Source: Chitinispirillum alkaliphilum (lineage in GTDB: Bacteria; Fibrobacterota; Chitinivibrionia; Chitinivibrionales; Chitinispirillaceae). From it: a DNA stretch of 64,000 nt. The notes below the pieces were generated by a model that ran no database searches, had not been told where the DNA came from, and was given only the letters and a program-made list of their open reading frames with translations. A program made the position numbers and the translations under genes. Positions 7,487 through 29,147 of the stretch are shown in pieces. The DNA is taken from NCBI GenBank assembly GCA_001045525.1, contig LDWW01000002.1, positions 62,001-126,000 of the forward strand. The letters run 5' to 3'. Position 1 is the stretch's first letter, and the number at the start of each line of letters is the position of its first letter.

Positions 7487-10400
7487 TTAAAATATCTCTA
7501 CAGGACAGTTAAATGAGGTAAAAACTGATCGTGCGAAAGGATGCGATGTTCCTGCTACCTGAACCTGACAACCATACTGTACCATCATGACATTCTGGAT
7601 ATTTCTCTCCCATGTAGCGACAAAAGTAGTGTTGTTCATCACATTCACCCTTGACGCTTCAAACAAACGAAAAATCCCCCACGGACCGCTGTATTGAATC
7701 TCGGTGTTAAAATTGTCGTTTACATGTATCTCAAGTTTTACATCCTGGGCTGGGTCCCTGAAAGGCCATTGCAAACGAATTCTGTTTCCCCTGTCAAGAT
7801 TGTATTTATGATCACCGACAAACATTGAACCCTGAAATCTGTTCTGAGGCAAGGGTTGAATTGTTAATGTCTGGTTTCTCAGGGTTCCATCTCTGTTGAA
7901 AAAAGTTGAAGTAACTACTTCGGCACTTCTCATTGCAGAGAAAAACTCATCATTAAAAGTAAGGTTTACAACTCCCACAGGTTGTGAACTCCAGGCATTG
8001 TTCTCTTTTTTCAGATAGGGTCCAAGATTTTGTGAAACGAAACTCCAGAACAATCCTGTATTAGGACGGAAGAAGTTCATAACCTCATCAAAAGGCACCT
8101 CGTTTTCAGAACGGCTGAAAGGATATTTCCCAGAGAGGTTATTAGTGAAAAATCCCGCAATATCATTCTGCCATTTTTGATTCAATTCTCTTATGATCAG
8201 GCGCTCTACTGCAGCACCGGACATCTCAATAGGCTTGGTCAAAACAGGTCTAACCGATGCGGCTATTCGTTCTGGCATAGAACCGGTGATGTTCTGGGTG
8301 AGAGTCCATGCAGAGAGTAGCGGGTCATTACTTTTGCCATCAAAATTATTCAATACAGAGCTGCTCTGTTTTGAACATTCCAACAATGCCTCTGCAAGCC
8401 TGCTCAGCTCCTGGGAGTATCCGTTAAGTCCCCCAAGGCGCCCTCTGGAATTAACAAAAGAAACAAGCGGATCTAAAGCATTTGTCTGTTGAGCTGCCCT
8501 ATCGCCTGCTCCAAATCTTCCCAGACGAGAATGATTGGCAGTGATATCATCCGCTTTGTTTTTTGCAATCGCCTTAACAGCTCCAAGCGCACCATCAGCT
8601 TCCCTTGTAACATCAATAGTGGAAAGACTTATTACATTGTTAAGCAAAACAGCCAGCTCAGAATTATCGGCCGAAAGACGCTGGAGCATTCTCCCCATCC
8701 TGGTCACATCAGAAGTTGTTTCAATATTTACCGAGCTCAAAAACCCGAGCCACTTATCTGTAACATCCTGCAGGTATAATTCTATTATCTCTGTTCGCAT
8801 TCTATTTTTGTCAAATGCTACATTTTCTGTTTGCTGATTTCTCAAACCCAATACCCAATCCACACGAAAAGGGTCTTGAATTATGGTTTCGATCTCATCA
8901 GCAACAAATCGATCCCACCCCTCCTGGGTATATATCCTGCTGACATTTCTGGAACTGGTGAGTATTCCATCTCCACCGGCTCCCGACAGATCACCTATCG
9001 ATAATACCGGCACTTGTGTTAACAGACGATTTCGCATCGACTCAAACAGTGTTTTAGCATCTGGCAACCTGGATAATCTATGCTGAGCATTTCTGACCAG
9101 CATGTTATCCTGTTGATACAAAGGCATTTCTCCAGCCAACAAATATTGACAATAAATACCTGCGTTTACACTAATAATATTCTCCAGATGTCCGGGTAAT
9201 CTTTCCCTGTTTTCACTTATTTTTATTGTCTGGTGAATCGCTTCTTCGATCTTCTCCCTCACCAGTACTGTATCTATTTTTCCGGGAGAACCCGAGATCA
9301 TTTGAGAAACAGAGAGATAGGCTTTAAGTAACCTGTAAAGCTCGTTGTATTCATCTCCCGAAAGCTCGCCGATCCCCATATTCCTGTTTCTGATATTGTG
9401 CTCGAAGTAGGACACCGATGGCACAACAAGATAATCGTAAGAGAGCTTTAGGTACACTTCTTTTAATGCCTCATAGATCTCCCTTCCACTCAAAAAACCA
9501 AACCCCTTTGAAATGGCAGCCCTACGTCCTGAATATCTTCTGTACTGACTTAGAAGCTCACTGATCCTGCCCAGCTGCTCGTATGCTTCTATGCGGTTCT
9601 CCGGAGTTTTCATGGCTGCAGATATTTCTTCTCTTGTCTGCTGATGAAGTTCAGCCACTCTTTGGTAGGATGAAAGCAGATACCAAAACGACAACGAGCA
9701 TACAAGTGTTATGATGGCAGCTACGGACCAGTACCTTATAGTCTGTTTGCGGGAAAACCGCTGTGTTCTTCTGATTTGCTGTGTACCGGAAGAGAAAATT
9801 TCCTCAAAAAGTCTGGTGAGGAAAAAAGACTTAACCTGTTTTCTGTTACTGGACTTGGTATTATTTTCTTTTGGTGCAGCCATTCTGTTTGGGTTAAGCG
9901 GATGATTGACAATAGTTTTGCTCAGGTCTGATACCTGCGGTAATGATTCGTTGTCGGAGTCGCCGCCGGAGATTTCGATTGTTTTACAACTTACAAAATA
10001 GAAACCTCTGAATACAGGTTTTCCTTCAAATGCACTTTCCTTGAAAAGCTCTGCCACAAAAGAAGTTATCTTAGATTCCAAACCTTCAAACTGAATAACA
10101 AATCTACAGATATTTCTGCGGTTATCCTCCTTTTTCTCTTTGGATAACCTTTTCAGACGCAGTGCTTTCAACGAATCGTTAAGAAGATCAAACTCCTGTT
10201 TGAGAACCTTTGCAGCTGGCTGAGATTGCTGAGTTTGGTTAAAAGTAGCTCCAAGTACATGTTCAGACCAGTTAACAGAAGCATCATTGAAAAACTGGTA
10301 AAATCCACCAATTTCATCAGCTTTACTGAAAACGCAAAACACAGGTAATTCCATGCCCCAAAAAGCTATAAGCTCATCAAGTTTCCTTCTCAATCTACCC

Positions 10401-10891
10401 GCCAGCGCTTTTACATATTCATTATCTCCGGCGAGAAATTCATCTACACTTACAACACAGATGATTCCATCTACAGGACGTTCCGAGCGGCACTCAGACA
10501 AGGATTGATACACAGCTTTGAACATATCAGAGGAATCATCTTCCAGATGTCTCCCCGGCATTTCAAGGTAAACTGCTTTGTTCCCGAAAAACCACTTCAT
10601 GCCCGAGACCGTGTCTCCATCCCTGTCCTCGGGGTACTTAAGGGGGAAATCCACTTGTCCACCTGTAAATAGTGATTTTTTACCACAATTCTCCGGCCCC
10701 ATCATCAGGAACCATGGATTTCCATATATTGCGCTGCTTTTAAATATGTTACTGCGTTTAATGGAGTCAGCATAGCGACTGCTGGCAACCCGGAACTCTT
10801 TTGTAATTCTTGAAAGCATCTCAGTATTCTGGCCAAAAGCCTGTGATTTCTTTGATGCTTTTTTCTTTCTTTTTTTTCTAAATATTGCCAT
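7487..10891 (-). CDS. tssM: Type VI secretion inner-membrane protein TssM (IcmF)
   Basis: TssM spans the inner membrane and forms the T6SS membrane complex with TssL and TssJ. The 1134-residue protein has a Walker A loop GPENCGKKS at residues ~65-73 and the strand VDGIICVVSVDEF in the cytoplasmic GTPase-like domain. One clear transmembrane helix lies at ~385-408, followed by a long periplasmic part that ends in the family's beta-rich C-terminal region. The usual N-terminal two-helix hairpin is absent: the protein begins with a lysine-rich soluble segment (RKKRKKKASKK). It is the last gene of the operon, 19 bp after clpV, and no tssL or tssJ adjoins it. Confidence 0.93.
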   Translation of the reverse strand: MAIFRKKRKKKASKKSQAFGQNTEMLSRITKEFRVASSRYADSIKRSNIFKSSAIYGNPWFLMMGPENCGKKSLFTGGQVDFPLKYPEDRDGDTVSGMKWFFGNKAVYLEMPGRHLEDDSSDMFKAVYQSLSECRSERPVDGIICVVSVDEFLAGDNEYVKALAGRLRRKLDELIAFWGMELPVFCVFSKADEIGGFYQFFNDASVNWSEHVLGATFNQTQQSQPAAKVLKQEFDLLNDSLKALRLKRLSKEKKEDNRRNICRFVIQFEGLESKITSFVAELFKESAFEGKPVFRGFYFVSCKTIEISGGDSDNESLPQVSDLSKTIVNHPLNPNRMAAPKENNTKSSNRKQVKSFFLTRLFEEIFSSGTQQIRRTQRFSRKQTIRYWSVAAIITLVCSLSFWYLLSSYQRVAELHQQTREEISAAMKTPENRIEAYEQLGRISELLSQYRRYSGRRAAISKGFGFLSGREIYEALKEVYLKLSYDYLVVPSVSYFEHNIRNRNMGIGELSGDEYNELYRLLKAYLSVSQMISGSPGKIDTVLVREKIEEAIHQTIKISENRERLPGHLENIISVNAGIYCQYLLAGEMPLYQQDNMLVRNAQHRLSRLPDAKTLFESMRNRLLTQVPVLSIGDLSGAGGDGILTSSRNVSRIYTQEGWDRFVADEIETIIQDPFRVDWVLGLRNQQTENVAFDKNRMRTEIIELYLQDVTDKWLGFLSSVNIETTSDVTRMGRMLQRLSADNSELAVLLNNVISLSTIDVTREADGALGAVKAIAKNKADDITANHSRLGRFGAGDRAAQQTNALDPLVSFVNSRGRLGGLNGYSQELSRLAEALLECSKQSSSVLNNFDGKSNDPLLSAWTLTQNITGSMPERIAASVRPVLTKPIEMSGAAVERLIIRELNQKWQNDIAGFFTNNLSGKYPFSRSENEVPFDEVMNFFRPNTGLFWSFVSQNLGPYLKKENNAWSSQPVGVVNLTFNDEFFSAMRSAEVVTSTFFNRDGTLRNQTLTIQPLPQNRFQGSMFVGDHKYNLDRGNRIRLQWPFRDPAQDVKLEIHVNDNFNTEIQYSGPWGIFRLFEASRVNVMNNTTFVATWERNIQNVMMVQYGCQVQVAGTSHPFARSVFTSFNCPVEIF

Positions 10892-10910: not shown

Positions 10911-13544
10911 TTAACAAACAACAGCCTGCTCTCCAAACTCAATCACTACATCTCCAGTTTCGTCAATATCGATCACTACCTTTCTCTCTTCTGATTCGCC
11001 TTCTTCTATTCCCACATTGGAGAGTATGTGGTCAGAAATCGCCGGCAAGAGCACACTGTTTATCACAGCATCGATATTCCTTGCTCCGGCTTCAGCTGCA
11101 CAACACCTGTTTGCAATAAACTTCACCACATCATCACTGTATGAGCAGGACATGGAATGGTTCTCCATCAAACGAGTCTCTATCTTTCCAAGCTTCATCC
11201 TAATCACTGAATCTAAAACCTCGGGGGTCAGTGACATGAATGGGATAATGTTGCATCTTGCAAGCAGCGCAGCCCCAAAGTGCTCAGTCAATTCTGGGCG
11301 AACCATTTCGATCAACATTGACTGATCACTGATCTGCTGAGTTTGAGCCTGGAGAATAGTTTCAGAACCGAGATTGGAAGTCATGAGGATAACAGTATTT
11401 CTGAAATTTATGTCGCGTCCTTCACCATCTCTCATAAATCCTTTGTCAAAAACCTGGTAGAACATATTGAGAATATCTTTATGAGCTTTTTCCACCTCAT
11501 CAAGGATTACAATGGAATAGGGTTTCTGTCTTACCGCTTCTGTTAAAATGCCGCCTTCACCATAACCCACATACCCAGGAGGCGAACCCTTGAGCTGAGA
11601 GACAGTATGTTTTTCCTGATATTCGGACATATTTATTACAGTGCTGAATTTTTCACCACCAAACAGAGTTTCTGCCAAAGCAAGAGCACACTCTGTTTTA
11701 CCCACTCCGGAAGGTCCTGTGCAGAGAAATACTCCTAAGGGAGCGTCGGGGTTTTTCATCCCAACTTTGGAACTTCTTATGGCAGAGGCAATCTCAGAAA
11801 TGGCGCAATCCTGCCCTTTTACCTTTTCTGAAAGTTTCTGCTCAAGTTTAAGCAGTACTTTTGCTTCATCTTTCATTATCGACCCGACAGGAATACCGGT
11901 CCAGTCTGCAATAACCTTAGCACAGATATCACCAGAGACATGTGAATACACCAATGGATTTTCTCCCGCGATCGACTCGAGTTCTCTGTTTTTACTCTCC
12001 AGTAATAACTGTATTTCTTTAGACTGCTCAGAATCCCTTCCGGCATCTCTTGCTTTTTGGTGGAGTTCGACAATCTCCTCTACACATGCCCGTTCCTTTT
12101 CCCACTTTTGCATCAAGTTGTCAACGTCTTGAGATATAGTCTGAGTTAACGAATCCAAACGTTCGATTTCGTTTTGATCGATTTCGATTCCTGCGGCAGA
12201 GTCATTTTTTATGGTTTGCAGAGCTCTGTGGATATCTGCCAGTTTCTTTTTCTTTGATTCGATACAGGATGGAGTTGTTGTTCGGCTCATTTTTACTCTG
12301 GTAGAGGCGGTATCAAGTATATCTACAGCCTTGTCGGGTAATTGTCTTCCGGATATAAATCTCTTAGAGAAGTGAACAGCTGCCTTTATCCCCTCTTCAC
12401 TTATATGCACACCGTGGTGTTTTTCATATGTCGGGGCGATACCACGCAGCATTGCACATGCTTTTTCTTCATCAGGCTCTTCCACTTTGACAAGCTGAAA
12501 ACGTCGGGTAAGTGCGGGATCTTTTTCGAAATATTTACGGTATTCAAGCCAGGTTGTCGCTGCACAGGTTCTCAGTTCACCGCGGGCCAGCGCTGGTTTA
12601 AGAAGGTTTGCAGCATCCCCCACGCCTGCTGAGCCTCCGGCACCGATAAGCGTATGTGCCTCGTCAATAAACAATATAATCCTGCCACCACTCTTTTTGG
12701 CTATATCGATAACTTCCTTAAGCCTTTTTTCAAACTCTCCCTTTACACTTGCTCCAGCCTGAAGAAGTCCAAGGTCCAGTTCCCAGACCTCAACATCTTT
12801 TAACGAATCTGGTACATCGGTGGAAACAATCTGCTGGGCAAGTCCTTCAATGATCGCAGTTTTTCCTACCCCTGCATCACCAACCAAAATGGGATTATTT
12901 TTCCTTCTCCGGCTCAGGATATCAACAACCTGAAATATTTCACTGTCTCTGCCAAGAATGGGATCAATTTTCCCCTCACGGGCTTCAAGTGTAAGATTTT
13001 TGCAATATTTTTTCAGTATCTCATTATTGCCAGCTTCCTGCCCCTGTGCATTCGTGGAAGATTCCTGACAGCTCTCTGAGGAACCGTCAATTATTTCGAG
13101 GAGATCCTTCTTGAGGACATTTTCATCTATTTCATTCAATATACCGGCTACCGGAGATATTGAGCGGGTTATATCTTCGTAAGCTGCAGTAAACACCACA
13201 CCCGACCTTATCTTCTCACATCCATACCTCAGAGTACCAATACTCCATGATTTTTCAAGTAAACTTACAAGTGAAGGGGAGAATGTGGGCTTTGAACTGC
13301 TTCCGGTAGGAAAATTTTCTATTTCCAGTACTAACATTTTTTTCAGTCTTGCAATATCAATTCCGAAATGTCGACAGATAAGGGCAATATCATTGTCCAC
13401 ACTATCAGTAAGCGCATAAAAAAGGTGTTCATACGTGAGCTCATAATTTTGCTTGTTTACACAGCTTCCAACAGAACTCTGAAACGCTTTTTGACAATGA
13501 TCATTTAATTTATCAAGAATTATACGAATGTCAGACACTACCAT
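10911..13544 (-). CDS. clpV: Type VI secretion AAA+ ATPase ClpV (TssH)
   Basis: ClpV disassembles contracted TssB/TssC sheaths so that they can be reused. Two AAA+ modules are visible: GDAGVGKTA with LFIDEAHTLIGAGG in the first, and GPSGVGKTE with VILDEVEKAH in the second. An N-terminal Clp repeat domain and a middle coiled region lie around them. The total of 877 residues is normal for ClpV. ATG at 13544 is chosen over the GTG three codons upstream because AAGGAG stands eight bases before the ATG but overlaps the GTG. It is the penultimate gene of the T6SS operon. Confidence 0.93.
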   Translation of the reverse strand: MVVSDIRIILDKLNDHCQKAFQSSVGSCVNKQNYELTYEHLFYALTDSVDNDIALICRHFGIDIARLKKMLVLEIENFPTGSSSKPTFSPSLVSLLEKSWSIGTLRYGCEKIRSGVVFTAAYEDITRSISPVAGILNEIDENVLKKDLLEIIDGSSESCQESSTNAQGQEAGNNEILKKYCKNLTLEAREGKIDPILGRDSEIFQVVDILSRRRKNNPILVGDAGVGKTAIIEGLAQQIVSTDVPDSLKDVEVWELDLGLLQAGASVKGEFEKRLKEVIDIAKKSGGRIILFIDEAHTLIGAGGSAGVGDAANLLKPALARGELRTCAATTWLEYRKYFEKDPALTRRFQLVKVEEPDEEKACAMLRGIAPTYEKHHGVHISEEGIKAAVHFSKRFISGRQLPDKAVDILDTASTRVKMSRTTTPSCIESKKKKLADIHRALQTIKNDSAAGIEIDQNEIERLDSLTQTISQDVDNLMQKWEKERACVEEIVELHQKARDAGRDSEQSKEIQLLLESKNRELESIAGENPLVYSHVSGDICAKVIADWTGIPVGSIMKDEAKVLLKLEQKLSEKVKGQDCAISEIASAIRSSKVGMKNPDAPLGVFLCTGPSGVGKTECALALAETLFGGEKFSTVINMSEYQEKHTVSQLKGSPPGYVGYGEGGILTEAVRQKPYSIVILDEVEKAHKDILNMFYQVFDKGFMRDGEGRDINFRNTVILMTSNLGSETILQAQTQQISDQSMLIEMVRPELTEHFGAALLARCNIIPFMSLTPEVLDSVIRMKLGKIETRLMENHSMSCSYSDDVVKFIANRCCAAEAGARNIDAVINSVLLPAISDHILSNVGIEEGESEERKVVIDIDETGDVVIEFGEQAVVC

Positions 13545-13611
13545 CTTTTTCACTCCTTGTTTTTTATACAGGTCTTTACCTTTATTACTTGCATATAAAA
13601 AAGATTATTAT

Positions 13612-14562
13612 TCAGCATTCAAATGTAATTGCACATTGTTCTTCTTTGTTGAGATTTTCCCCGCAACTTGAGCAAATACCCAGTGCAGAATTGTCTTCAC
13701 CCAGTATAACCGGGATAAGATTTGCAGGTGTAAAATTAAGCTGTATATCAAATTCCAGCGGTTCGGAAGTGAACAGCGGAACAATTTCTGTGATTTTTTC
13801 CACGTTTGGAGAATTTGGAAGAAAAGATCCGACATCATCTTTGCTTTCCAGATCAATAATGATTCGAATTTTTCCCGAGCGATCATACACCCTCTCCCCA
13901 ATCATCGCCTCAGAGCCCAATACCAGATTTATTCCAAGCTGATTTTCACTCTCAACTCTGGCCCACCTTCCAACCCACTGCTCCACTCTCACATTTACAC
14001 CCTGTAATATATCGCTTAATATTTCTTCCAGTGCATATGAATTGTGATTTACCCCTGAAAACAGTCCAGCGTACGCTAAGAGGGAGGGTGCCTTTTGGTC
14101 TTTGAGGTCCAAACCGGCAAGTGAAGCCAGGCAGGTATAAATATCAGAAGTGTGACTCCATTTAGTGGTATGCAATAACCGGTATTTTTTCCAGGCAGCA
14201 TAAAACAAAGTATAAAACCGGTGATCAAATATATTCAAAAAGTCTACCAGTGCTTCTGACCCATCACGTTGAGTTGCCCCATACTCCGTAAAGTAATGTG
14301 GCAATGGTGAACTGATACCCAAAAGCCCCATAAAGGAGAGGTAAAACTCAACAGCACGGTCTGAATCTGATTCTATATGATGTATATCACTCGATGGAAA
14401 AGTGATTCCGGTATCAGCCCAGAACCTTAAATGAAATTTTTCATGTAAGGTTTCCTTTTCCCTGCACTCCTCAGTACCAAAGTACTCCTCCAGAAGAGTC
14501 ACAGCCTGGAAAAAGTCAAATTCCATGCAGCGTTCTTTAAGCAGCTCTATCAGATCAGACAC
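13612..14562 (-). CDS. tssG: Type VI secretion baseplate protein TssG
   Basis: TssG is a baseplate wedge subunit that works with TssF and TssE. This 316-residue protein shows the family's opening (FDFFQAVTLLEEYFG), the LSFMGLLGISSPLPHYFTE block, FLNIFDHRFYTLFYAAWKKYR and a conserved LAYAGLFS segment. The GTG start at 14562 has a GAGGG ribosome binding site and overlaps the end of tssF by 13 bp, so translation is likely coupled. The C-terminus carries a CSSCGEN motif that could bind metal; I do not know this feature from TssG generally. Confidence 0.9.
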   Translation of the reverse strand: MSDLIELLKERCMEFDFFQAVTLLEEYFGTEECREKETLHEKFHLRFWADTGITFPSSDIHHIESDSDRAVEFYLSFMGLLGISSPLPHYFTEYGATQRDGSEALVDFLNIFDHRFYTLFYAAWKKYRLLHTTKWSHTSDIYTCLASLAGLDLKDQKAPSLLAYAGLFSGVNHNSYALEEILSDILQGVNVRVEQWVGRWARVESENQLGINLVLGSEAMIGERVYDRSGKIRIIIDLESKDDVGSFLPNSPNVEKITEIVPLFTSEPLEFDIQLNFTPANLIPVILGEDNSALGICSSCGENLNKEEQCAITFEC

Positions 14563-16298
14563 CGTTCACCCTCAACATTATTGAATTTAACAATTTTACC
14601 GGATGGTTTAAGTATAAATTCAACTTTACAGAAAGAATTAATTGATACATATTGACTTAAAAACCTTGATATCACCAAACCAAACAGATGCAAATCCCCA
14701 CTATCTATAAATGCCTGTTCTTCGAGTGTAATCTTAAATTTAACACCCCTTATTACCCCCCCCTTGTACACTGCATCAACCGGCTCACTTTCAACATCCG
14801 TTATTGATTCGATTCTCCGCGTTCTGCCCTCCTGAGCAGACCAGTTGTATAACTCAAGAAATTTTTTCAGCACATCTTTTGACGCCAAACTTATCTGGGT
14901 GGCTGCCATATGTGCCTGAAATCTCCAGAGCAGATCGTGATTTGATGGCGGAAAAAATGGAAGTGTGGGGCGGGTGATGTTTGAGGCACTCACGAAATCA
15001 GGAAATCCACGTCCGGGACAATTTATATCACCCTCTCTGATGTGATCCCTTGGCACATTGCCGTTTGTACACCAAGCCTCTATTACAAGGCTCTCTTCCC
15101 TGATTTGCTTGTTGTCCAACTGAGAACCACTCAGCATGATATCCACTTCCCGTGTACCGGCCGGAGTTTGAACAGACCTGAAGGCATATGTTTTACCACG
15201 ACGATTTCCGATATTTCTGAATGTATACATCGGTTCATACGTAAATTTTTCACCGGTCACCCTATCTATTCCCAAAACACTTATTAAGCTATGCACCCGA
15301 ACAGAGGTAGAGTAGGAGGAGTCAGCGATTACCCGGTAATCAGATTTTTTCCCGGTCTTAATGATAGGTTCAACATTTTTGGTGAACATATTTGTTGCGG
15401 GGCAACAATTTAATTTGAACATATCAGGACGAATCTGTTTATCGTGAGGGAAGGGTTCCTTTATTGTAAATGTAAAAGTGATGATATCCGGAGTAGTTTC
15501 AGGTGCGGGGATTGAGTCAATACCATTGAGATCGATAAACAAAAACTTTTCAGGATAAACAAAATATTCCCTGAGAATATTGAATCCTGCAAAACTGCGG
15601 CGCATCTGCGGCAATACAGCTTCACTTGCGTCCATTCCCCCCGGTGTGATTGCATTTTTGGGATTAATCTGAAAGACCTCTCCTTCGGCTCCCATTTTAA
15701 TCTCCGCATGCTTAACCATCGTTGTTAATGCACGATGTACCATCAGTGCAACAGGGAATTCCGCATGCAAAAAGAGACGGATTTTTTTCAAATCATAATT
15801 TAACCATTCAACATCACTATCCAGATTGAACGTAAAAGAGATTGTCTCATTATTCATTTTATCAGTATGGCGCTGTACGGATCTCAGCGATATTGGATTC
15901 ATAACCAGAGAGTTTGTTGTAGTAAATTTACACACTACACCATCCTCCCCAACAGAACCTGAGACAATTTCTGAACGTGCCGGCAGAACCCGGCTCTCCT
16001 GGAGAAATCCCTTACGAGGCGTAAACTGCATCATTGTCAGAGATGGAATTTCCTGAAGAAACTGAGGCCATAGAAGGTTAACAAGCCCTTCTGTTAGCTG
16101 CGGAAAGGAATCATCCAATTTTTCCCTTATTCTTGCAGCTAAAAAAGCAAATCCTTCAAACAATCTCTCTACATATGGATCCCTGTCCCCTACTGAATCG
16201 ATATTCAGATATGGAGCTCTGTCAGGGTGAGCTTTTGCGAATTCACATCCCGATTGATACAGATATCTCAATTCTTCTTCGTAGTATTTCTCAATCAT
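14550..16298 (-). CDS. tssF: Type VI secretion baseplate protein TssF
   Basis: TssF is the main baseplate wedge component. The family signature is at the N-terminus (YYEEELRYLYQSGCEFAKAHPDRAPYL, then DPYVERLFEGFAFLAARIREKLDD and PQLTEGLVNLLWPQFLQEIPS). The later blocks CPATNMF and YRVIADS also fit. At 582 residues it is of typical length. No clear ribosome binding site precedes the ATG, which lies 9 bp after tssE, so it probably relies on coupling. Its neighbours on both sides are baseplate genes. Confidence 0.92.
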   Translation of the reverse strand: MIEKYYEEELRYLYQSGCEFAKAHPDRAPYLNIDSVGDRDPYVERLFEGFAFLAARIREKLDDSFPQLTEGLVNLLWPQFLQEIPSLTMMQFTPRKGFLQESRVLPARSEIVSGSVGEDGVVCKFTTTNSLVMNPISLRSVQRHTDKMNNETISFTFNLDSDVEWLNYDLKKIRLFLHAEFPVALMVHRALTTMVKHAEIKMGAEGEVFQINPKNAITPGGMDASEAVLPQMRRSFAGFNILREYFVYPEKFLFIDLNGIDSIPAPETTPDIITFTFTIKEPFPHDKQIRPDMFKLNCCPATNMFTKNVEPIIKTGKKSDYRVIADSSYSTSVRVHSLISVLGIDRVTGEKFTYEPMYTFRNIGNRRGKTYAFRSVQTPAGTREVDIMLSGSQLDNKQIREESLVIEAWCTNGNVPRDHIREGDINCPGRGFPDFVSASNITRPTLPFFPPSNHDLLWRFQAHMAATQISLASKDVLKKFLELYNWSAQEGRTRRIESITDVESEPVDAVYKGGVIRGVKFKITLEEQAFIDSGDLHLFGLVISRFLSQYVSINSFCKVEFILKPSGKIVKFNNVEGERCLI

Positions 16299-16307
16299 AA
16301 TTTATTT

Positions 16308-16727
16308 CTACTGAGGTTTTTTCCAAGGTATAATTTTTGATGGTTCACTTGCTGAAAAAGTTGTCTGGAACCGAACTTGTTTTCCATTCCTAAGTTCTGC
16401 AGACAAAATAAAAATTAATCGGGCATCCCTTTCTTCAGAATCAAGTGATAGAACTTTGGTGTTTGTAATACGAGGTTCATATTTTTCAATAGTTTTTCTG
16501 ATTGCTGCCCGCAACTCTTCCATACCTTCAGGCAATTTTCTGTATAGTTCAGAAATATCCGGCAGCCCATAGTCTACCAGATGTGGTATACTTCCTCTTC
16601 TGGTATTAAAAATTCTTGTCAGATGATCCATAATGGATTTAAGTTGTCTGTGACTCTCGGGTACTTCATCAATAGGAGTTCCGTCATGGAACTCACCTGT
16701 CAAGCTTTCAAACAGGCCCTGTTTCAT
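16308..16727 (-). CDS. tssE: Type VI secretion baseplate protein TssE
   Basis: TssE is the gp25-like baseplate subunit that helps start sheath assembly. The 139-residue protein has the family's LFESLTGE opening, NTRRGSIPHLVDYGLPD and the IRKTIEKYEPRI segment around the gp25 core. It lies between hcp and tssF. A strong hairpin separates it from hcp, so it may be transcribed at a lower level than hcp. Confidence 0.9.
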   Translation of the reverse strand: MKQGLFESLTGEFHDGTPIDEVPESHRQLKSIMDHLTRIFNTRRGSIPHLVDYGLPDISELYRKLPEGMEELRAAIRKTIEKYEPRITNTKVLSLDSEERDARLIFILSAELRNGKQVRFQTTFSASEPSKIIPWKKPQ

Positions 16728-16834: not shown

Positions 16835-17311
16835 CTATCTGCCCTCAAGCCAGGAATCAGAATGCATATATCCACCATCGGGATATTCCCATGTAATTTT
16901 CCCGTAACGGAAACTTACCTTTTCCATGTGCACAAAGCGCTCAAACTCCTTAGCTTTCACATTGTGCATGATCGGCTCAACCGAGCAGACCTTGACAGTT
17001 TCCAGAAGATGGGTAAAATAGAGAACCTCAGCTCCTTCGTCATCTATTTTGTACCAATCGAGTTTCAGGGTATCATAGGTCAATCCTTCACATACCGCTT
17101 TATACAAAAGTGGTGATGACTGATCGAATGCTTTTACGATCTGAAAAGACTCATGCTTCCTTGTACCAGTAAGCTGTCCGGTGTCCGGATCCGTAGGGAT
17201 ACGAACTTCGTGATGAAACTCAATAACTTCAATACTGTTCTCACGACCACCAACAGTACATCCGCCTTTAACCTTACCGTCGTTAATCCACATATACGCA
17301 GGTATTGGCAT
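16835..17311 (-). CDS. hcp: Type VI secretion tube protein Hcp (TssD)
   Basis: Hcp forms the hexameric rings of the inner tube and is secreted. The 158-residue sequence has the family start (PIPAYMWINDG), GREN followed by IEVIEFHHEV, the TGTRKHESFQIVKAFDQSSPLLYKAV block and a YGKITWEY strand near the end. The ATG has AAGGAG six bases upstream. It sits between tssC and tssE, with the hairpin described at 16781-16815 immediately downstream. Confidence 0.93.
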   Translation of the reverse strand: MPIPAYMWINDGKVKGGCTVGGRENSIEVIEFHHEVRIPTDPDTGQLTGTRKHESFQIVKAFDQSSPLLYKAVCEGLTYDTLKLDWYKIDDEGAEVLYFTHLLETVKVCSVEPIMHNVKAKEFERFVHMEKVSFRYGKITWEYPDGGYMHSDSWLEGR

Positions 17312-17376: not shown

Positions 17377-18897
17377 CTATTTACCCTTTGGCATCTGTGA
17401 CACCAGCGAAAGATTGATATCAATACCTTCAATCTGAAAGTGCGGCATAACAGACAATGATACAGAGAAAAAACCTGGATTATCCGGAACAGCATCAACC
17501 AGAACTTCCGCAGCCTTGAGAGGATGGGTTGCAATGAGCTGTGGTCCCGGATCGGGCATCTCTGTTACAAGGCCCTTGATCCAATTGTTGAGTTCTTCCT
17601 GCAGTACAGCCTGGCTCTTTGTCGTTCCGATATTTTCCCTTTGAATTACTTTAAGATAGTGTGCAATCCGTGAAACCATAAAGATATAGGGCAATCTCGA
17701 ATTAACACGCATATTAGCAGTAACAATGGGATCATCGTACTCCTGAGGTCTCTGTGAAGAGTTTGCAGAAAAGAAACATGCATAATTTCTGTTTTTGTAA
17801 AAAGAGAGCGGAATAAATCCTTCATTGGCAAATTCAAACTCTCTTGTTTCCGGAATAAGTATTTCGGTTGGAATTTTCATCTGAGTACCTTTTCCGACAT
17901 CAAAGAAATGTACCGGCAGGTCCTCTACCTTTCCGCCCGACTCAGGTCCACGGATCTGAACACACCATCCATTATCAATGAATGATCTGACCATATTTGC
18001 AGCGAATGCAAATGAACTGTTACCCCAGAGATATTTGTTATGATCTTCTCCGGTGATTTTCTCAGTGTAGTTAAATTCCTTTACCGGAATAGTATCGGGA
18101 CCGTACGGGAGCCTCAGAGCAAATCTTGGCAGTGTAAGCCCTACATAACGGGAATCTTCAGTTTTTCTGAATGCATTCCATCTCATGAATTCAGATCTGT
18201 CCATGAAGGTGTGTAAATCTTCTATTTTCGGGAGATCATGAATATCATCTTTCCCAAAAAACTTTGGCGTCACAGAGCCAACAAAAGGACAATGACAAGC
18301 GGCAGCGACTTTAGAAATATTCTGCAAAAACCCGATATCTTCTGGGCCGCTTCCAAACTCATAGTTGGAAATCATAACACCGTAAGGCTCTCCACCCGGT
18401 GTGTCGTATTCATCAGTATATACCTGCTTATACAAGCCAGACTGAATAATCTCAGCAGCATCCTCGAAATCCTCGATGAGTTCATCTTTAGCCATGTCAA
18501 GAACATCGATTTTGACGTTTTTCCTGAAATCAGTTCTATCAACTAGAAACTTCAAACTTCTCCAGGCAGACTCCATCTTCTGGAAATCAGGGTGATGCAG
18601 CACCTCATCAAGCTGATCAGAAATTTTACTGTCGATATCGGCAATGATCTGATCAAGAACGGTTTTGTCAATCTTATCAATTGTTAAACCGCTCTGAATA
18701 ACACTATCCATAAAGAAACTCAGCGCAGCACCGATTCTCTCATTGGTTTTGCTCTCAGCAAGTGCTGCTGCATCAGAGTAGGCCATTACATCTACAGCAT
18801 CCTGCGGAACAGTCAGATCCATTGTCTGGTAGATAAAGTCCAGACAATTTTCAGTTGGCACTGAATTGTCCTGTGTTTCCTTTTCTTCTACTGCCAT
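17377..18897 (-). CDS. tssC: Type VI secretion contractile sheath large subunit TssC
   Basis: TssC (VipB) builds the contractile sheath together with TssB. Family motifs include the HPDFQKMESAWRSLKFLVDR block, YGVMISNYEFG, FGKDDIHDL, the LRLPYGPDT segment and the C-terminal NPGFFSVSLSVMPHFQIEG. The ATG at 18897 is preferred over GTG 18906 because AAGGAG lies eight bases before it. This gives 506 residues, a normal length. The gap to tssB is 65 bp. Confidence 0.95.
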   Translation of the reverse strand: MAVEEKETQDNSVPTENCLDFIYQTMDLTVPQDAVDVMAYSDAAALAESKTNERIGAALSFFMDSVIQSGLTIDKIDKTVLDQIIADIDSKISDQLDEVLHHPDFQKMESAWRSLKFLVDRTDFRKNVKIDVLDMAKDELIEDFEDAAEIIQSGLYKQVYTDEYDTPGGEPYGVMISNYEFGSGPEDIGFLQNISKVAAACHCPFVGSVTPKFFGKDDIHDLPKIEDLHTFMDRSEFMRWNAFRKTEDSRYVGLTLPRFALRLPYGPDTIPVKEFNYTEKITGEDHNKYLWGNSSFAFAANMVRSFIDNGWCVQIRGPESGGKVEDLPVHFFDVGKGTQMKIPTEILIPETREFEFANEGFIPLSFYKNRNYACFFSANSSQRPQEYDDPIVTANMRVNSRLPYIFMVSRIAHYLKVIQRENIGTTKSQAVLQEELNNWIKGLVTEMPDPGPQLIATHPLKAAEVLVDAVPDNPGFFSVSLSVMPHFQIEGIDINLSLVSQMPKGK

Positions 18898-18962
18898 ATA
18901 AATCACTCCTTATTTTACATTCTAAACTGATATGCATTAATCTGATTAGTCCTTGCGCGCTG

Positions 18963-19487
18963 TTAAGCGTCCTGTTCTTCTTTCTCCGAAGTTTCCTCAG
19001 GAACAATGTTTTTAAGCTGCTCCATCAACGCTTTTGTGGCATCACCATCTTTAAGGATTGTTTCCAGTCTCTTTCTGAACTCTCTGTTGTCGAGAAGATT
19101 TGATTTTAAATCTTTCACCAGATTTCTGGCAGCTAACAAACGACTTATTGATGGAATGTTTTTGGCAACGACTTCAGGATTGAATGATTTCATATTCTTA
19201 ACTTTAAGACTGACAGGAATTGCCTTTTCAGAATCACCCGAGAGTTTATCATCCACAGCATAGTTTAAGGAAAGATCCATACCTTCCATTACCTGTTCAA
19301 AGTTGTTTTTATTGATCTCGATCTTTTCTCTGTCAATCACACGCTGATCTTTGGGTTTAATTGAAAAATCACCCATAACCATCATTTTAAGAGGTAATTC
19401 AACTTTCTTTTTCGCATCCCCTTTACCCACATCGAGTTTAAGGTTTATTCGCGCCGGGGGTATTTCGTTTTGGAAACTTCCAGCCAT
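18963..19487 (-). CDS. tssB: Type VI secretion contractile sheath small subunit TssB
   Basis: TssB (VipA) pairs with TssC to form the sheath. The protein begins PPARINLKLDVGKGDAKKKV and MMVMGDFS, both characteristic of the family, and has the LKVKNMKSFNPEVV and RNLVKDLKSNLLDN helices. ATG at 19487 is taken as the start (174 residues), since AAGG precedes it at good spacing while the GTG at 19496 abuts that site. It is the second gene of the operon. Confidence 0.93.
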   Translation of the reverse strand: MAGSFQNEIPPARINLKLDVGKGDAKKKVELPLKMMVMGDFSIKPKDQRVIDREKIEINKNNFEQVMEGMDLSLNYAVDDKLSGDSEKAIPVSLKVKNMKSFNPEVVAKNIPSISRLLAARNLVKDLKSNLLDNREFRKRLETILKDGDATKALMEQLKNIVPEETSEKEEQDA

Positions 19488-19511
19488 TGTCTCCACCTTT
19501 CTGTTTAAGAG

Positions 19512-21083
19512 TTACTGTTTTTGTTTATATGCAGCTTTTGGGTTAACAAAACTGAGTTTTTTCATGACATTTTCTCTTTTTTCCAACAGACACAGCTGTG
19601 AAGGCCCTTGTTTTCCCTGTGCTGCCGAAGCATAAACTCTTGCCAACAGACTAAGAGTTTCAGAGCAAAGTTCAGGCTCCCATGCACATAGATTAAATTT
19701 ATCGATAGTTTCTGCCAGAGTTTCAAGAATATACAGCGCAAGGTCGGTTCTCTTTGCATTATACATAACCGATGCAACAATAACTCTTCTGCGGAAGTTA
19801 TCTCTTTCTGAGTTTGAATCCGAAATCTTTCCAAGAAGTAAATCCAAAGCAGAATCCACCTTCTTTTGAGAAACCAGCCCGTTAACCTCCTTGCGATCCT
19901 CTTCAACTGAATCATTTACCTTTCCGGCATTTGACGCACTCTCCGAAGAGAAGAGGCTGGCCACTTCATCCTCGATCCAATCAACTGTTGCCGGATCACA
20001 GAAAGGAGTTCCGTCGCTGTAGCAGAGATTTTTCACCTCCGGGAGCCGTTTTAAGAACAGTGCGGTCTCAAGCACTATAGCATCCCTGACAGAGGCATAG
20101 GCAGGCCCAAGCTGTGACGCTGCAGTGGCAGAAATTCTCTGAAGATCCAACCAGTAATGTGTTGGACCAGAACTGAATACCTTCTCAGCGGTATCAAGAG
20201 CGGATTTGTAATCACCTTTTTCCAAAAGAGCACTTATGGAATTACGTCTCTCCGGCGGAGGGGGTTCAAGTCTTGTGGTAGTACCATCTGAAACCGGAGC
20301 ATTTTCCACACTGCCCCATCTTACGGCTCTGAGAAAACGATAACCACGTGGACTTTCCGGCTGTTTACCTATTAAAAAAAGAGCAGATTTGCGAATGCTC
20401 TCCAGTGCATCTTTGGGGGAATCCAAAGGCCCTGTGGATGCAGCAGAGGCAGAAGCGGCGCTGGAAGATGCTTGAGTTCCGGAGGCGGCAGCACCTGAAG
20501 CGGAACCACCCGTTTGGGCCTGAGAAGTTTGTGGTTTGGGTGGCTCTTCCTTCTTCGGCTCAGTCTGTTTTTCCCATTTTTGAGCGGCGGAATACAACTT
20601 AGCGGGAAACGGTGCACCGTTAGGGAATTCGGCATTGAGCACATCTTTCATTTTCAAGAGTGCTGCAGATAATCTTTTCACATGCTCATGAGCTTCAGTA
20701 TCAGGCTTGGCGTTTTCGATGGTATCGACAAAACGATTTTCGCTTAACCACTTAAGAGAAAGTTGTTTAGCTCTTGGACGAATAGGAAACAAAGAGCCAT
20801 AATCTTTTCCCATAAGCTGTCCAAGAGAGTCAAAAACATCACAAAAACACTGCCACTCTCCTTTTTTGAGATAACAAAAGCCAAGAAAAGAGAAAAGACG
20901 AATATCCTTAGACTTTTCCGTCAATAGGGAAAAGGACTTCTGTTCAAGAGTATCAAAATCTATGTTGGCCAGTTTTCCGATCTCAGCTTTGACCAATTCG
21001 AAATCATGATCGTAGTTGATATCTTCACCATAAGAAGTACCATCATCAAACAGTGCAGTTAATTGAGTAAGATGTTCAGAAAT
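19512..21083 (-). CDS. tssA: Type VI secretion protein TssA, apparent ATT start
   Basis: TssA primes and caps tail tube and sheath assembly. The ImpA N-terminal motif GEDINYDHDF is encoded upstream of the first ordinary start codon in the frame (TTG 20996), so that TTG would remove conserved sequence. Between the in-frame TAA and that TTG the only well-placed start is ATT at 21083, nine bases after AGGAG (21097-21093). This gives 523 residues. A Ser/Ala/Gly-rich linker (~residues 175-220) joins the ImpA_N domain to a VasJ-like C-terminal domain (DSPKDALESIRKSALFLI onward). It is the first gene of the operon. The start is inference; the function is clear. Confidence 0.85.
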   Translation of the reverse strand: MSEHLTQLTALFDDGTSYGEDINYDHDFELVKAEIGKLANIDFDTLEQKSFSLLTEKSKDIRLFSFLGFCYLKKGEWQCFCDVFDSLGQLMGKDYGSLFPIRPRAKQLSLKWLSENRFVDTIENAKPDTEAHEHVKRLSAALLKMKDVLNAEFPNGAPFPAKLYSAAQKWEKQTEPKKEEPPKPQTSQAQTGGSASGAAASGTQASSSAASASAASTGPLDSPKDALESIRKSALFLIGKQPESPRGYRFLRAVRWGSVENAPVSDGTTTRLEPPPPERRNSISALLEKGDYKSALDTAEKVFSSGPTHYWLDLQRISATAASQLGPAYASVRDAIVLETALFLKRLPEVKNLCYSDGTPFCDPATVDWIEDEVASLFSSESASNAGKVNDSVEEDRKEVNGLVSQKKVDSALDLLLGKISDSNSERDNFRRRVIVASVMYNAKRTDLALYILETLAETIDKFNLCAWEPELCSETLSLLARVYASAAQGKQGPSQLCLLEKRENVMKKLSFVNPKAAYKQKQ

Positions 21084-21097
21084 AACAACCAGCTCCT

Positions 21098-21761: not shown

Positions 21762-23315
21762 ATGGCATGTTTTTATCTTGAAGTAACAAGTGGCTATGAC
21801 TCAGGAAAACGCTTTAAGCTATCGGATGGGGCAAATACCATTGGCAGAAGTAAGGATAATTCAATTTGCCTGAGCAAAGAGGAACGTGTCGTATCAAGCC
21901 ACCATGCAATAGTTTACAAGTATCAGGACAAAGTTACCATTCAGGATATGTCCAGCACAAACGGGACATATAAAAATGGTGTTCGTATAGTTCAGGAAGA
22001 CCTCTCAGAGGATGAAGATTTTGGTTTCGGAGAGAAGGGGCCCAGGTTAAAACTCATTATCAGTGAAGAAGAACTTACTACGGCCGCCCCAGCCGTGGCA
22101 ACCAAAACGATCTCCAAAACTAGCCATACCGATAACACCGGGTATGAATTCGACAATCATCAGGACAATGATTCCCTGTTTCCCAAAAAAACACAGAGTA
22201 CCCCTTTGAACCCAAATGCCCAATTCGGTTCATATACCATGGACATCGAGCAAAAACTGATAAAGAATCAAATAAGCAGTGAAGACATGCACAAACTGCT
22301 CAGTAAGGGTGAACGGGTGGAAAAAATAATGCAACAGGGGAATTTAAGCAAAACCCAAACCCACTTTCTTCACATGGCATATAACTCACAAAGTAAGCTT
22401 CGTAAACAATTTATGCTTATTATTGGGTCTATCTGTTTGATATCTATTATTGTAACTGCGCTTTTCTCTGTAAGAATCATCCAATACAGAAGAAATCTAA
22501 ATGAAGCTCAACTGCTGAAAAATCAACTGGAAGGATATGAAAAGGAAATTCACGAAGCGCAAAGAAGAGGCGCCGGGGAAAGAGAGATTTCCGGACTTAT
22601 AAATGAGTTAGAAGAAACACAGTCCAGGTTCCACTCTTTGACAATGGAACTGAGGGAGGAGGATTTCAATAAATTTTACAAAGATACCGTAGAATTGTTC
22701 CTCCATGACATACTCGCCCGCTTCGGCGAGACTGAATTCCATGTACCACCTCAAATGCTCGAACGGGTGAAACATCACATAGATATTTATTCCGGTCCAA
22801 TGAGGCGAACCATAGGCCGCTTTTTCGAAAGAAAAGAACTCTATTTCCCGATGATCCACCGGATATTTACGGAAAACAATCTACCACCCGAACTTGCCTA
22901 TATCTCGATGCTTGAAAGCGGCTTTGACACTCTTGCTATCAGCCATGCCGGAGCTGTGGGGTTGTGGCAATTTATGCCCCGCACAGGACGACAATACGGC
23001 CTTAGAGTCGACGATGCAATTGACGAACGAAACAACCCTCTGAAATCAACCTATGCTGCGGCTGAATATTTAAAGAATCTTATTTCCATCTTCGGAAGCA
23101 GAAGCTCCATTATGCTTGCTATTGCAGCCTATAATGCCGGCGAAGGGAGAATCATAGGAGCACTCAAGAGAATAGAAAACCCAATGAGAGATCGCTGTTT
23201 CTGGCACATATACAGATTGGGTCTGCTTGCTGAGGAGACAAATGAATATATCCCACGCATACTCGCCCTCATCATTTTAGATGAAAACCGTGAGTATTAC
23301 GGATTCTCCAGATAA
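21762..23315 (+). CDS. FHA domain - transmembrane - lytic transglycosylase fusion, T6SS-associated
   Basis: Residues ~5-100 form a forkhead-associated domain with the phosphothreonine-binding signatures TIGRSKDN, SSHHA and SSTNGTYKNG. A single transmembrane helix lies at ~215-237 (MLIIGSICLISIIVTALFSV). A coiled coil follows, then a soluble lytic transglycosylase domain at ~365-500 with YISMLESGFD (probable catalytic Glu ~385), GAVGLWQFMPRTGRQYGL and IAAYNAGEGRI. The topology is therefore cytoplasmic FHA and periplasmic peptidoglycan cleavage. Its place beside tssA suggests it opens the cell wall for T6SS assembly under control by protein phosphorylation. That link is inference; no kinase gene is in the window. 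Confidence 0.85.
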   Translation: MACFYLEVTSGYDSGKRFKLSDGANTIGRSKDNSICLSKEERVVSSHHAIVYKYQDKVTIQDMSSTNGTYKNGVRIVQEDLSEDEDFGFGEKGPRLKLIISEEELTTAAPAVATKTISKTSHTDNTGYEFDNHQDNDSLFPKKTQSTPLNPNAQFGSYTMDIEQKLIKNQISSEDMHKLLSKGERVEKIMQQGNLSKTQTHFLHMAYNSQSKLRKQFMLIIGSICLISIIVTALFSVRIIQYRRNLNEAQLLKNQLEGYEKEIHEAQRRGAGEREISGLINELEETQSRFHSLTMELREEDFNKFYKDTVELFLHDILARFGETEFHVPPQMLERVKHHIDIYSGPMRRTIGRFFERKELYFPMIHRIFTENNLPPELAYISMLESGFDTLAISHAGAVGLWQFMPRTGRQYGLRVDDAIDERNNPLKSTYAAAEYLKNLISIFGSRSSIMLAIAAYNAGEGRIIGALKRIENPMRDRCFWHIYRLGLLAEETNEYIPRILALIILDENREYYGFSR

Positions 23316-26915: not shown

Positions 26916-29147
26916 TTACCATATAAAAAGTGAATCTGTATTATTAATGCCACGCAAAAACAGCCATGAATTGATCTTTATATTACATGTATCCGAGGCG
27001 CGATCGCGGGGATTTTCATACCAGGTTTTCAACCATCTCCATGAAAGCGTATCTGAATCAAACATCAATTCTGTTTGCTCATGAGTAAGCTCAACGGAAC
27101 TGAACACACTGTCCGGTGCAACGGTAGCTGTTGACCTTTGAGGAATAAAAACGCCATTCTCACTCATCAGATTTATGAAACCATGATTTTCTGCTTCCCC
27201 GGAAGTGATGAGATTATGAACATCATCTATTGTCATTGCTTCAAGTTCCTGCATTTTGTTGTCTCTGTTGGGAGCAATCAAAGCATAGAGTCTACTGTTT
27301 AAATTAGAGTTGTTTCTGATCCACATATTGAACTTTAAATACCTGTCATCCATTTTCCTGAAGATATCAAGTTCACCAGGGACACTAAACGTATCGATGC
27401 CAAGATCCATAACGAATGTGTTTGTCACCCTCCAGTCAAGAGATGCATTCATCTGGTAGGTCACGTTGGCATTAACCGTGAGCCGCCCAACATAGCTGAC
27501 ATAATCGGGATCAAGGGGATCTATAAGGTCATTGATCGCCCTAATTGTAGTACCCGCTGGTACTCTAACCCTGACAATTGCCATAATGGAATCCGGAAAC
27601 TGATTTACCACATCTGTAATATCTATACCTCTCATAAAGGTGGTATCATTTTTAACATGGTTTAAAACAGTATTTGTATCACTGCTGACCTGAGAGAGTA
27701 TGTCGACCATCCTGAATTCAACTTCCATATGCTCCATCTCGGAGCCCTGAGTCATCTCTGTGTGTACAAATATGTTTGCAGACACATCATCAGCAAATTC
27801 AAAATTCCCCCTTAACCTCTCTTTGTTGCCCTCATGCCATGGAAATGGAATCTCCACGTAAACTGTATCACCTTCACGTTCGTAATCAAGCATTACTTCA
27901 CCAAAAAACTCCTTGAATTTGTATTCCCCAGTGCTGACAGTCACAGTGATGACATCATTTTCGTTCAGAGTTACGACCTGCCCTCTTGGCGCAACTTCGA
28001 CCTCGTACCAAACCTGGGTAAAACACTCGCCTCTGTGAGGATCCCATTGGGGGAACATTCTCACACCGGAGAGATTTTTCAGATCAAACTCACGAAATTC
28101 ACCGGCTCCAACATTCGTTTCAATAATAGTACCGAAATAACCGTCTAAACTATCCTGCCTCGTAAACCCTGCGGCACCGAGATGTGCTCTGTTTTGGTGA
28201 CCTTCGCTAATACTGAAAGAACTTCTCCACAAATCTCTGTGGTGCCCACCGACCCGCAAATTCAGATCTGTGTTATTCTGGATAGTATACCTATAGAACC
28301 CATCTAAAACATCGATATAGTGCATAAAAACAGTATCTGTAATATCGTAGTCAACGTTAAAAGAAACACCCATACCGGCAAGCATATTATCATTTACCTG
28401 AACAGAAGAAGCTAGAAGCCCGTCAAAATCAAATGCCACATCAACATTCCCTGTACCACCGGTTGCACTTACCGATACCGGAACAGAATTGCCAAAAGTT
28501 CTTCCTGCCACAGGAATTACAGCAGTAGCCTGACCGTTGGCGGGAATACTAACAGAAGACGACTGAGCTCCAGCAATACTTGCAACAACATTGGAAAGAG
28601 TGCTGCCGGTGTGATTTGTAAGAACCACACTCATTGTGGGACTGGTTGAGTGAAACTCAATCAGGTGGATACCAAAAGGTGTAAGATCAAGATTTTGTAC
28701 GCCACTGTTTACAGGAATTGTTCCGGTGACCAGATTCGATGAAAGCGGAAGAGGCCCAAGGTGCTGATGATGTATCTCGTCATCAATATTTTCTTCTTTA
28801 ATCTGAAAGTCTGTTGTATCACGTTTGATATAACTGAATATCAGCGTACTGTCTCCATGCCGATATGGTTTATCAGCGTAGATGGGATTGCCTTTCTCGT
28901 CAAATTTCAAAGTGTCCTTAAAGAATTTCTGGTCCATATTGATAATGGCCAAACTGTCTCCTTTAATGAACATGTTTTCCAGTTCTTCACCAAGAAAAAA
29001 CTTGTGATTTGTTATTGGTAAATCCATTGCGGAAGTCCATCTCAAAGGCTCTTCATCAACCGGATTTGCACATTGCAGTAACAACATATTAACCGTTACA
29101 ACAGCAATGCAGAGACCAACCCGTGAAATTTTTGGCACCCTAAACAT
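26916..29147 (-). CDS. Large lipoprotein of unknown function
   Basis: The 743-residue product starts after AAGGAGG with a lipoprotein signal ending LLLQC (Cys ~26), so it should be lipidated and anchored, probably in the outer membrane. The rest is predicted to be mostly beta-structured: many Thr/Val-rich strands, an SSSVSIPANGQATAVIPVAG segment like an immunoglobulin-type fold, and few charged helices. No catalytic motif is visible. It lies 30 bp upstream of the OmpA-type barrel gene in the same direction, which suggests a shared envelope or adhesion role. I do not recognise the family. Confidence 0.65.
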   Translation of the reverse strand: MFRVPKISRVGLCIAVVTVNMLLLQCANPVDEEPLRWTSAMDLPITNHKFFLGEELENMFIKGDSLAIINMDQKFFKDTLKFDEKGNPIYADKPYRHGDSTLIFSYIKRDTTDFQIKEENIDDEIHHQHLGPLPLSSNLVTGTIPVNSGVQNLDLTPFGIHLIEFHSTSPTMSVVLTNHTGSTLSNVVASIAGAQSSSVSIPANGQATAVIPVAGRTFGNSVPVSVSATGGTGNVDVAFDFDGLLASSVQVNDNMLAGMGVSFNVDYDITDTVFMHYIDVLDGFYRYTIQNNTDLNLRVGGHHRDLWRSSFSISEGHQNRAHLGAAGFTRQDSLDGYFGTIIETNVGAGEFREFDLKNLSGVRMFPQWDPHRGECFTQVWYEVEVAPRGQVVTLNENDVITVTVSTGEYKFKEFFGEVMLDYEREGDTVYVEIPFPWHEGNKERLRGNFEFADDVSANIFVHTEMTQGSEMEHMEVEFRMVDILSQVSSDTNTVLNHVKNDTTFMRGIDITDVVNQFPDSIMAIVRVRVPAGTTIRAINDLIDPLDPDYVSYVGRLTVNANVTYQMNASLDWRVTNTFVMDLGIDTFSVPGELDIFRKMDDRYLKFNMWIRNNSNLNSRLYALIAPNRDNKMQELEAMTIDDVHNLITSGEAENHGFINLMSENGVFIPQRSTATVAPDSVFSSVELTHEQTELMFDSDTLSWRWLKTWYENPRDRASDTCNIKINSWLFLRGINNTDSLFIW

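Follow-up and report, generated by a model that had tools for sequence, protein, structure and literature searches.

The locus studied here raises the question of what is done by a single protein that joins a phosphothreonine-reading FHA domain to a wall-cutting lytic transglycosylase (LT) and is encoded next to the genes of a T6SS. It lies in a stretch of 64,000 nucleotides, hereafter the window, from Chitinispirillum alkaliphilum, which belongs to the Fibrobacterota, a phylum of mostly uncultured bacteria. The assembly of a T6SS, with the opening of the cell's own wall, and the action of kinases and FHA proteins on its membrane complex have usually been studied as separate questions, and the natural fusion of a phospho-reader with a wall enzyme suggests that both steps can be one event. 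C. alkaliphilum has previously been noted as a T6SS carrier (PMC4814513), and the T6SS of the Fibrobacterota appears to be little studied.

The fusion gene (21762..23315, plus strand) is an uninterrupted open reading frame with an ATG start, and its 517-amino acid product (P0001) is composed of an FHA domain, one transmembrane helix, a coiled coil and an MltD-like LT, in this order. The FHA domain occupies residues 1-103 (21762..22070, plus strand), as indicated by Pfam (match at residues 26-90, E 2.2e-13), alignment, predicted structure and PDB matches. The LT domain covers residues 330-515 (22749..23306, plus strand), according to Pfam (SLT match at residues 371-469, E 1.3e-25), alignment and both sequence and structure matches. 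A hydropathy scan has revealed a single hydrophobic segment in P0001 (residues 213-242; 22398..22487, plus strand) and one in every homologue. P0001 has no N-terminal hydrophobic signal, which would place its FHA end in the cytoplasm and its LT end in the periplasm; this topology is deduced from the domain functions, the charge pattern being indecisive. The AlphaFold2 model, obtained with a 15-sequence alignment, showed a mean pLDDT of 83.8 (about 90 for the FHA beta-sandwich and about 95 for the LT fold), with a long helix crossing the membrane and a disordered linker at residues 109-155. The top PDB structure matches found with Foldseek were P. aeruginosa MltD and phosphothreonine-binding FHA domains, mycobacterial ones among them, such as Rv0020c, GarA and OdhI. 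By sequence comparison, residues 357-515 matched MltD 8rhe (E 8.6e-25) and the FHA end matched Rv1747 and TB39.8/Rv0020c. The presence of FHA, transmembrane and LT parts in one protein, proposed in an earlier note made from the DNA letters, was therefore confirmed by Pfam, hydropathy, AlphaFold2 and Foldseek.

The residues of the FHA phosphothreonine site (G28, R29, S45, H48 and N67) were invariant in 24 aligned homologues with 32-58% identity to P0001, as were the LT residues E385 (the catalytic Glu), S386, G400 and Q403 (GxxQ, 400-403) and A455-N458 (AAYN). These key residues stayed invariant once distant Fibrobacteria copies were added, and because of this conservation both halves of the fusion look active as judged from their sequences. 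A frame or assembly artefact was excluded, since the fusion reading frame is unbroken in many independent MAGs.

To the left of the fusion gene, a T6SS cluster is located on the minus strand in the order tssA-B-C-hcp-E-F-G-H(clpV)-M. The divergent neighbour of the fusion gene is tssA (19512..20996; T6SS_VasJ in Pfam, E 5.5e-70), in agreement with the divergent arrangement originally described. The other genes, also on the minus strand, are tssB (18963..19496), tssC (17377..18906) and hcp (16835..17311), assigned by Pfam; tssE (16302..16727, about 141 aa), assigned by its position and its sequence, read from the frame; and tssF (14550..16298), tssG (13612..14562), tssH (ClpV, 10911..13553) and tssM (IcmF, 7487..10891). 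An aminotransferase and an OmpA-type protein are encoded to the right of the fusion gene. In the window genome, the genes for TssK and TssL share a different contig (L077) with those for a PEGA-domain protein and a Ser/Thr kinase, and a third contig (L099) carries those for a CHASE2-kinase and a FecR protein.

Homology to TssA and the open frame continue upstream of the TTG at 20996 (window 20996-21095, minus strand), a run that contains no ATG, GTG or TTG. An AGGAG is present near 21096, as read by eye, and an unusual start codon, CTG or ATT, may be used; the true tssA start is probably upstream, near 21090. At positions 26916-29147 of the window (minus strand), beside the gene of a DUF5723/OmpA protein, a protein of 743 aa is encoded that begins like a lipoprotein and has no match in Pfam.

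The fusion was found in 39 of 151 Fibrobacterota genomes, all of them with a T6SS (39/39), as expected of a T6SS-dedicated accessory, and in none of the 99 T6SS-negative genomes of the phylum. The T6SS was scored by TssC (PF05943) or TssK (PF05936), with TssK applied to the nearest 41 genomes and TssC elsewhere. When 61 relatives were considered, the T6SS set and the fusion set were exactly the same 32 genomes, and the co-occurrence in the 151 genomes gave a hypergeometric value of 3e-25, kinship being ignored. Pairs of genomes from the same genus share or miss the fusion and the T6SS jointly (G013 with both and G004 with neither in g4; G014 with both and G007 with neither in g7), which suggests co-loss. 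The T6SS was present in 52 of the 151 genomes, and 13 of these, from families f8 and f13, have no fusion, so the rule is one-way: the fusion implies a T6SS and is not universal among Fibrobacterota T6SSs. The link between the fusion and the T6SS is strong.

In a tree of LT domains, all FHA-LT proteins were placed on one side of a branch with SH-aLRT 91, apart from MltD-type enzymes, which is consistent with one origin. With FHA+LT orthologues in 39 Fibrobacterota genomes and this branch, the fusion can be taken as real and not as a chance product. No FHA+LT protein from outside the Fibrobacterota was among the best 80 matches listed in a GTDB r220 scan, the matches outside the phylum being FHA-less MltD-type proteins; the scan was built on LT-motif patterns, and unrelated FHA+SLT fusions may fall outside its reach.

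Genes of the tss group adjoin the fusion in 12 of 36 copies. Within this arrangement (A), the fusion is divergent from tssA in the window, G006 and G008, whereas in G005 hcp lies between both genes; it is also found beside tssA-B-C (G013), tssK/tssB (G018) and tssL/tssM (G021). The copy in G033 and the second copies of G003 and G005 are oriented divergently from tssM. The tssK-PEGA-kinase genes are near the fusion in G001, G005, G006 and G018, with tssL too in three of them, and in G001, G005 and G006 the fusion is flanked on its opposite side by the genes for the kinase, the PEGA protein, TssK and TssL. Arrangement B is an operon with the order FecR/LysM protein, CHASE2-Ser/Thr kinase, FHA-LT and radical SAM. 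Besides the 12 copies next to tss genes, about 13 adjoin a CHASE2-kinase gene, usually as an operon; about 14 copies in all are on the same strand as such a gene, and the kinase to FHA-LT spacing is about 10-30 bp in most arrangement B copies. Both arrangements are united in G032, where the CHASE2 operon with the fusion is divergent from tssA-B-C-hcp; the CHASE2 neighbour is truncated in G024. Neither a tss nor a kinase neighbour was found in 11 of the 36 copies (arrangement C). Eight of these belong to the reduced genus g10, two (L045, L054) lie at the edge of a contig, and the last one, in L044, has a TssB/TssC-like gene upstream of the fusion. The window genome has only six Ser/Thr kinases, so the repeated adjacency to kinase genes is unlikely to be due to chance.

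The pairing with a T6SS claimed in the earlier note is upheld at the genome level (39/39), but a position next to tssA is not typical: relatives mostly keep the fusion elsewhere, and many copies are located directly downstream of a CHASE2-kinase gene, away from the main tss cluster. Frequent occurrence outside T6SS loci, which that note regarded as a point against the pairing, was indeed observed, but the fusion was never found outside T6SS genomes in the 151-genome sample of the phylum.

The window genome has kept the CHASE2-Ser/Thr kinase and FecR genes that usually share an operon with FHA-LT, without FHA-LT beside them (L099:6689-10087, G000:C6), so the gene appears to have moved; this suggests a relocation of the fusion gene from the CHASE2 operon to the tss cluster. 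At L077:10348-13203, and at equivalent positions in nearly all these genomes, tssK-tssL is divergent from the genes of a PEGA-domain protein and a Ser/Thr kinase, which may serve the T6SS as sensor in the periplasm and as kinase, respectively. G003 (L070 and L092, G003:C193) and G005 (L071/L093) contain a second, divergent T6SS, for which a further FHA-LT copy is encoded divergently from tssM; one kinase there has about 900 aa. A VgrG or DUF2169 gene adjoins the fusion in a few genomes (L041, L042, L040, L120).

Single proteins of 532-609 aa that are TssB-like plus TssC-like are encoded at L052:4083-5768, L047:4052-5704, L104:6866-8620 and, in the window genome, L106:7947-9776. The matches were weak in the FHA-LT operon copies and strong in the window genome (VipA E 4e-16, VipB E 7e-32), and the protein is regarded as a fused sheath paralogue. 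In a fusion-less T6SS genome, the TssA reading frame (L212:11281-16776) spans 1831 aa and is extended by 1300 residues at its N-terminus.

With respect to possible phosphothreonine ligands, the N-terminal tail of TssL carries the motif T[M/L/I/S][D/N/R][L/I] in 21 of 21 distinct non-g10 loci, compared with a mean of 1.1 and a maximum of 5 in shuffled sequences (2000 shuffles); the motif was defined on the sequences in which it was afterwards counted, and this result is to be taken as a lead and not as a test. It was present in none of the three g10 TssL, although the fusion persists in g10, and in none of five TssL from fusion-less T6SSs. The motif Thr is residue 14 of the predicted TssL in L041 and L042, and QTMF/QTLF repeats take its place in the more distant TssL of f11 (L207). 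In A. tumefaciens, TssL Thr14 is the phosphorylation target of PpkA and is bound by Fha (PMC3953482), and by analogy the Fibrobacterota motif, which sits in the corresponding place, is a candidate ligand. A similar N-terminal Thr is found in the TssK-linked kinases ([D/E][K/R]T[F/I/V]xE), and the cytoplasmic linker of the fusion has its own motif, SxT[M/V/I/F][D/E]xE, with Thr159 of P0001 (codon 22236..22238, plus strand) as a putative phosphosite. The TssL of fusion-bearing T6SSs is short (about 250 aa), with DotU only and without a peptidoglycan-binding extension. The TssL proteins of fusion-less T6SSs (L209:4311-6284, L213:6753-8567, and also L215 and L216) have 604-657 aa, with DotU and a weak IcmF_C match (E about 0.001), and are possibly a TssL-TssM mini fusion.

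Considering that the fusion occurs only in T6SS genomes and often beside protein-kinase genes, it probably opens or grips the wall at the site where the T6SS is built. The interpretation preferred here, which on balance seems reasonably likely, is that the fusion is an inner-membrane LT dedicated to the T6SS, and that threonine phosphorylation recruits it and perhaps also switches it. One of the Ser/Thr kinases belonging to the system, either the TssK/TssL-linked one (with a transmembrane segment and TPRs) or the CHASE2-sensor kinase, would phosphorylate membrane components of the T6SS. The most likely site is the conserved N-terminal Thr of TssL, and Thr159 of the fusion is a further possible one. 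The cytoplasmic FHA domain would then bind the resulting phosphothreonine on TssL (or on the kinase), and through this docking the MltD-like domain would come to lie, on the periplasmic side, at the TssL/TssM complex and would cut glycan strands there so that the complex can cross the wall. Several observations weigh against this interpretation: 11 of 36 copies lack both tss and kinase neighbours, the Thr motif is missing from g10 TssL, both kinases of the window genome are encoded on other contigs, and the T6SSs of f8 and f13 have no fusion. In this simplest account a single fusion would do both the Fha and the wall-enzyme jobs. Phosphorylation, FHA ligand and local wall opening are predicted steps, and so is a gating of activity as opposed to placement; placement of the LT is better supported than allosteric gating. 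The specific version in which a kinase marks TssL inside the cell and the FHA domain reads the mark and brings the wall cutter, one polypeptide replacing Fha and a recruited transglycosylase, is proposed tentatively, its likelihood being somewhat below even. With regard to the merging of both jobs claimed in the earlier note, the part supported is that a canonical Fha is missing and that T6SS-associated Ser/Thr kinases are encoded beside the fusion. The fusion points to testable partners, namely the FHA domain, the N-terminal Thr of TssL and the two kinases.

Anchoring is a serious rival, since the short TssL of these systems (about 250 aa) consists of DotU only and does not extend into a peptidoglycan-binding part. 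The fusion would be a T6SS scaffold in which FHA holds phosphorylated TssL or the kinase while the LT grips peptidoglycan, thus substituting for the peptidoglycan-binding domain of other TssL proteins. The Myxococcus protein AgmT is described as an LT linking a machine to the wall (PMC11444678), which provides a precedent. However, a pure anchor would not need the catalytic residues, and their invariance in 24/24 aligned homologues argues that cutting is at least part of the job. Anchoring as the explanation is considered unlikely, and both roles are not mutually exclusive.

A slightly less likely explanation is that the fusion serves a general, kinase-controlled remodelling of the wall, in growth or in response to envelope stress, and that it is associated with the T6SS only because its carriers share a lineage and have larger genomes. 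The many copies located in the CHASE2-kinase operon away from tss genes are in favour of this, and many of the T6SS-negative members are small or belong to other families, but the fusion is found in 0/99 T6SS-negative genomes, it is co-absent with the T6SS within g4 and g7, extra copies lie beside second tssM genes, and the same CHASE2 operon is divergent from tssA in G032. It is very improbable that the fusion is a T6SS effector, a wall toxin delivered into rival cells. LT/muramidase effectors exist, and a few genomes have a VgrG or DUF2169 gene next to the fusion; however, the FHA domain and the transmembrane anchor are conserved, no constant immunity-like partner gene was found among the neighbourhoods compared, and the fusion is present in every T6SS-positive genome sampled from its order, in many cases without linkage to vgrG.

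When the T6SS-dedicated LT proposed here is compared with known systems, its layout of an FHA-like cytoplasmic domain, one transmembrane segment and a periplasmic part is shared with YscD/PrgH of the T3SS inner ring, and P0001 matched Yop-YscD_cpl in Pfam (E 5.7e-10). A YscD/T3SS ring protein was excluded by the T6SS context and the SLT domain: in contrast to YscD/PrgH, the phosphothreonine residues of the fusion are complete and its periplasmic part is an enzyme. The housekeeping LT MltE is another enzyme for which a role in opening the wall during T6SS assembly has been proposed. In enteroaggregative E. coli, the membrane complex of the T6SS recruits MltE, and TssM stimulates it from the periplasmic side (PMC10433429). 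MltE and the fusion have in common an LT tied to the T6SS with a proposed role in wall opening, whereas the LT of the fusion is of the MltD type, anchored in the inner membrane and provided with a cytoplasmic phospho-reader. TagX of Acinetobacter, a T6SS peptidoglycan hydrolase (PMC5061870), is likewise a dedicated membrane-associated wall enzyme tied to the T6SS, but it is an L,D-endopeptidase without an FHA domain.

The fusion shares with Fha/TagH/Fha1 of the PpkA-PppA-Fha pathway the N-terminal FHA domain, the phosphothreonine-binding residues (R29, S45, H48 and N67 are present and invariant), the T6SS association, Ser/Thr kinase partner genes and a TssL Thr as the likely ligand; no PppA was noticed near the fusion. 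Fha proteins are not known to have a transmembrane helix or a wall enzyme. They have been described as cytoplasmic (PMC5995506), whereas the fusion has a membrane segment. The C-terminal T6SS_FHA_C domain of the family (PF20232) was absent from P0001 and from all 41 genomes scanned, the E. coli control being positive. MltD, a family 1 LT (P. aeruginosa, 8RHE), is the closest solved structure and sequence for residues 357-515, and the SLT fold, the catalytic Glu and the GxxQ and AYN motifs of the fusion are those predicted for an MltD-type enzyme. However, MltD carries C-terminal LysM domains, lacks FHA and is secreted or a lipoprotein, while the fusion has FHA and a transmembrane segment instead of LysM; the window genome also encodes a separate MltD-like protein (L002). 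A description of an FHA-LT fusion was not found in the open literature (PMC), and the same applies to the single-polypeptide FHA-LT, its CHASE2-kinase link and its strict T6SS dependence. The fusion belongs neither to the Fha/TagH family as defined nor to standard MltD; each half is of a known kind, with a logic known in the T6SS, and together they would act like Fha plus a recruited LT.
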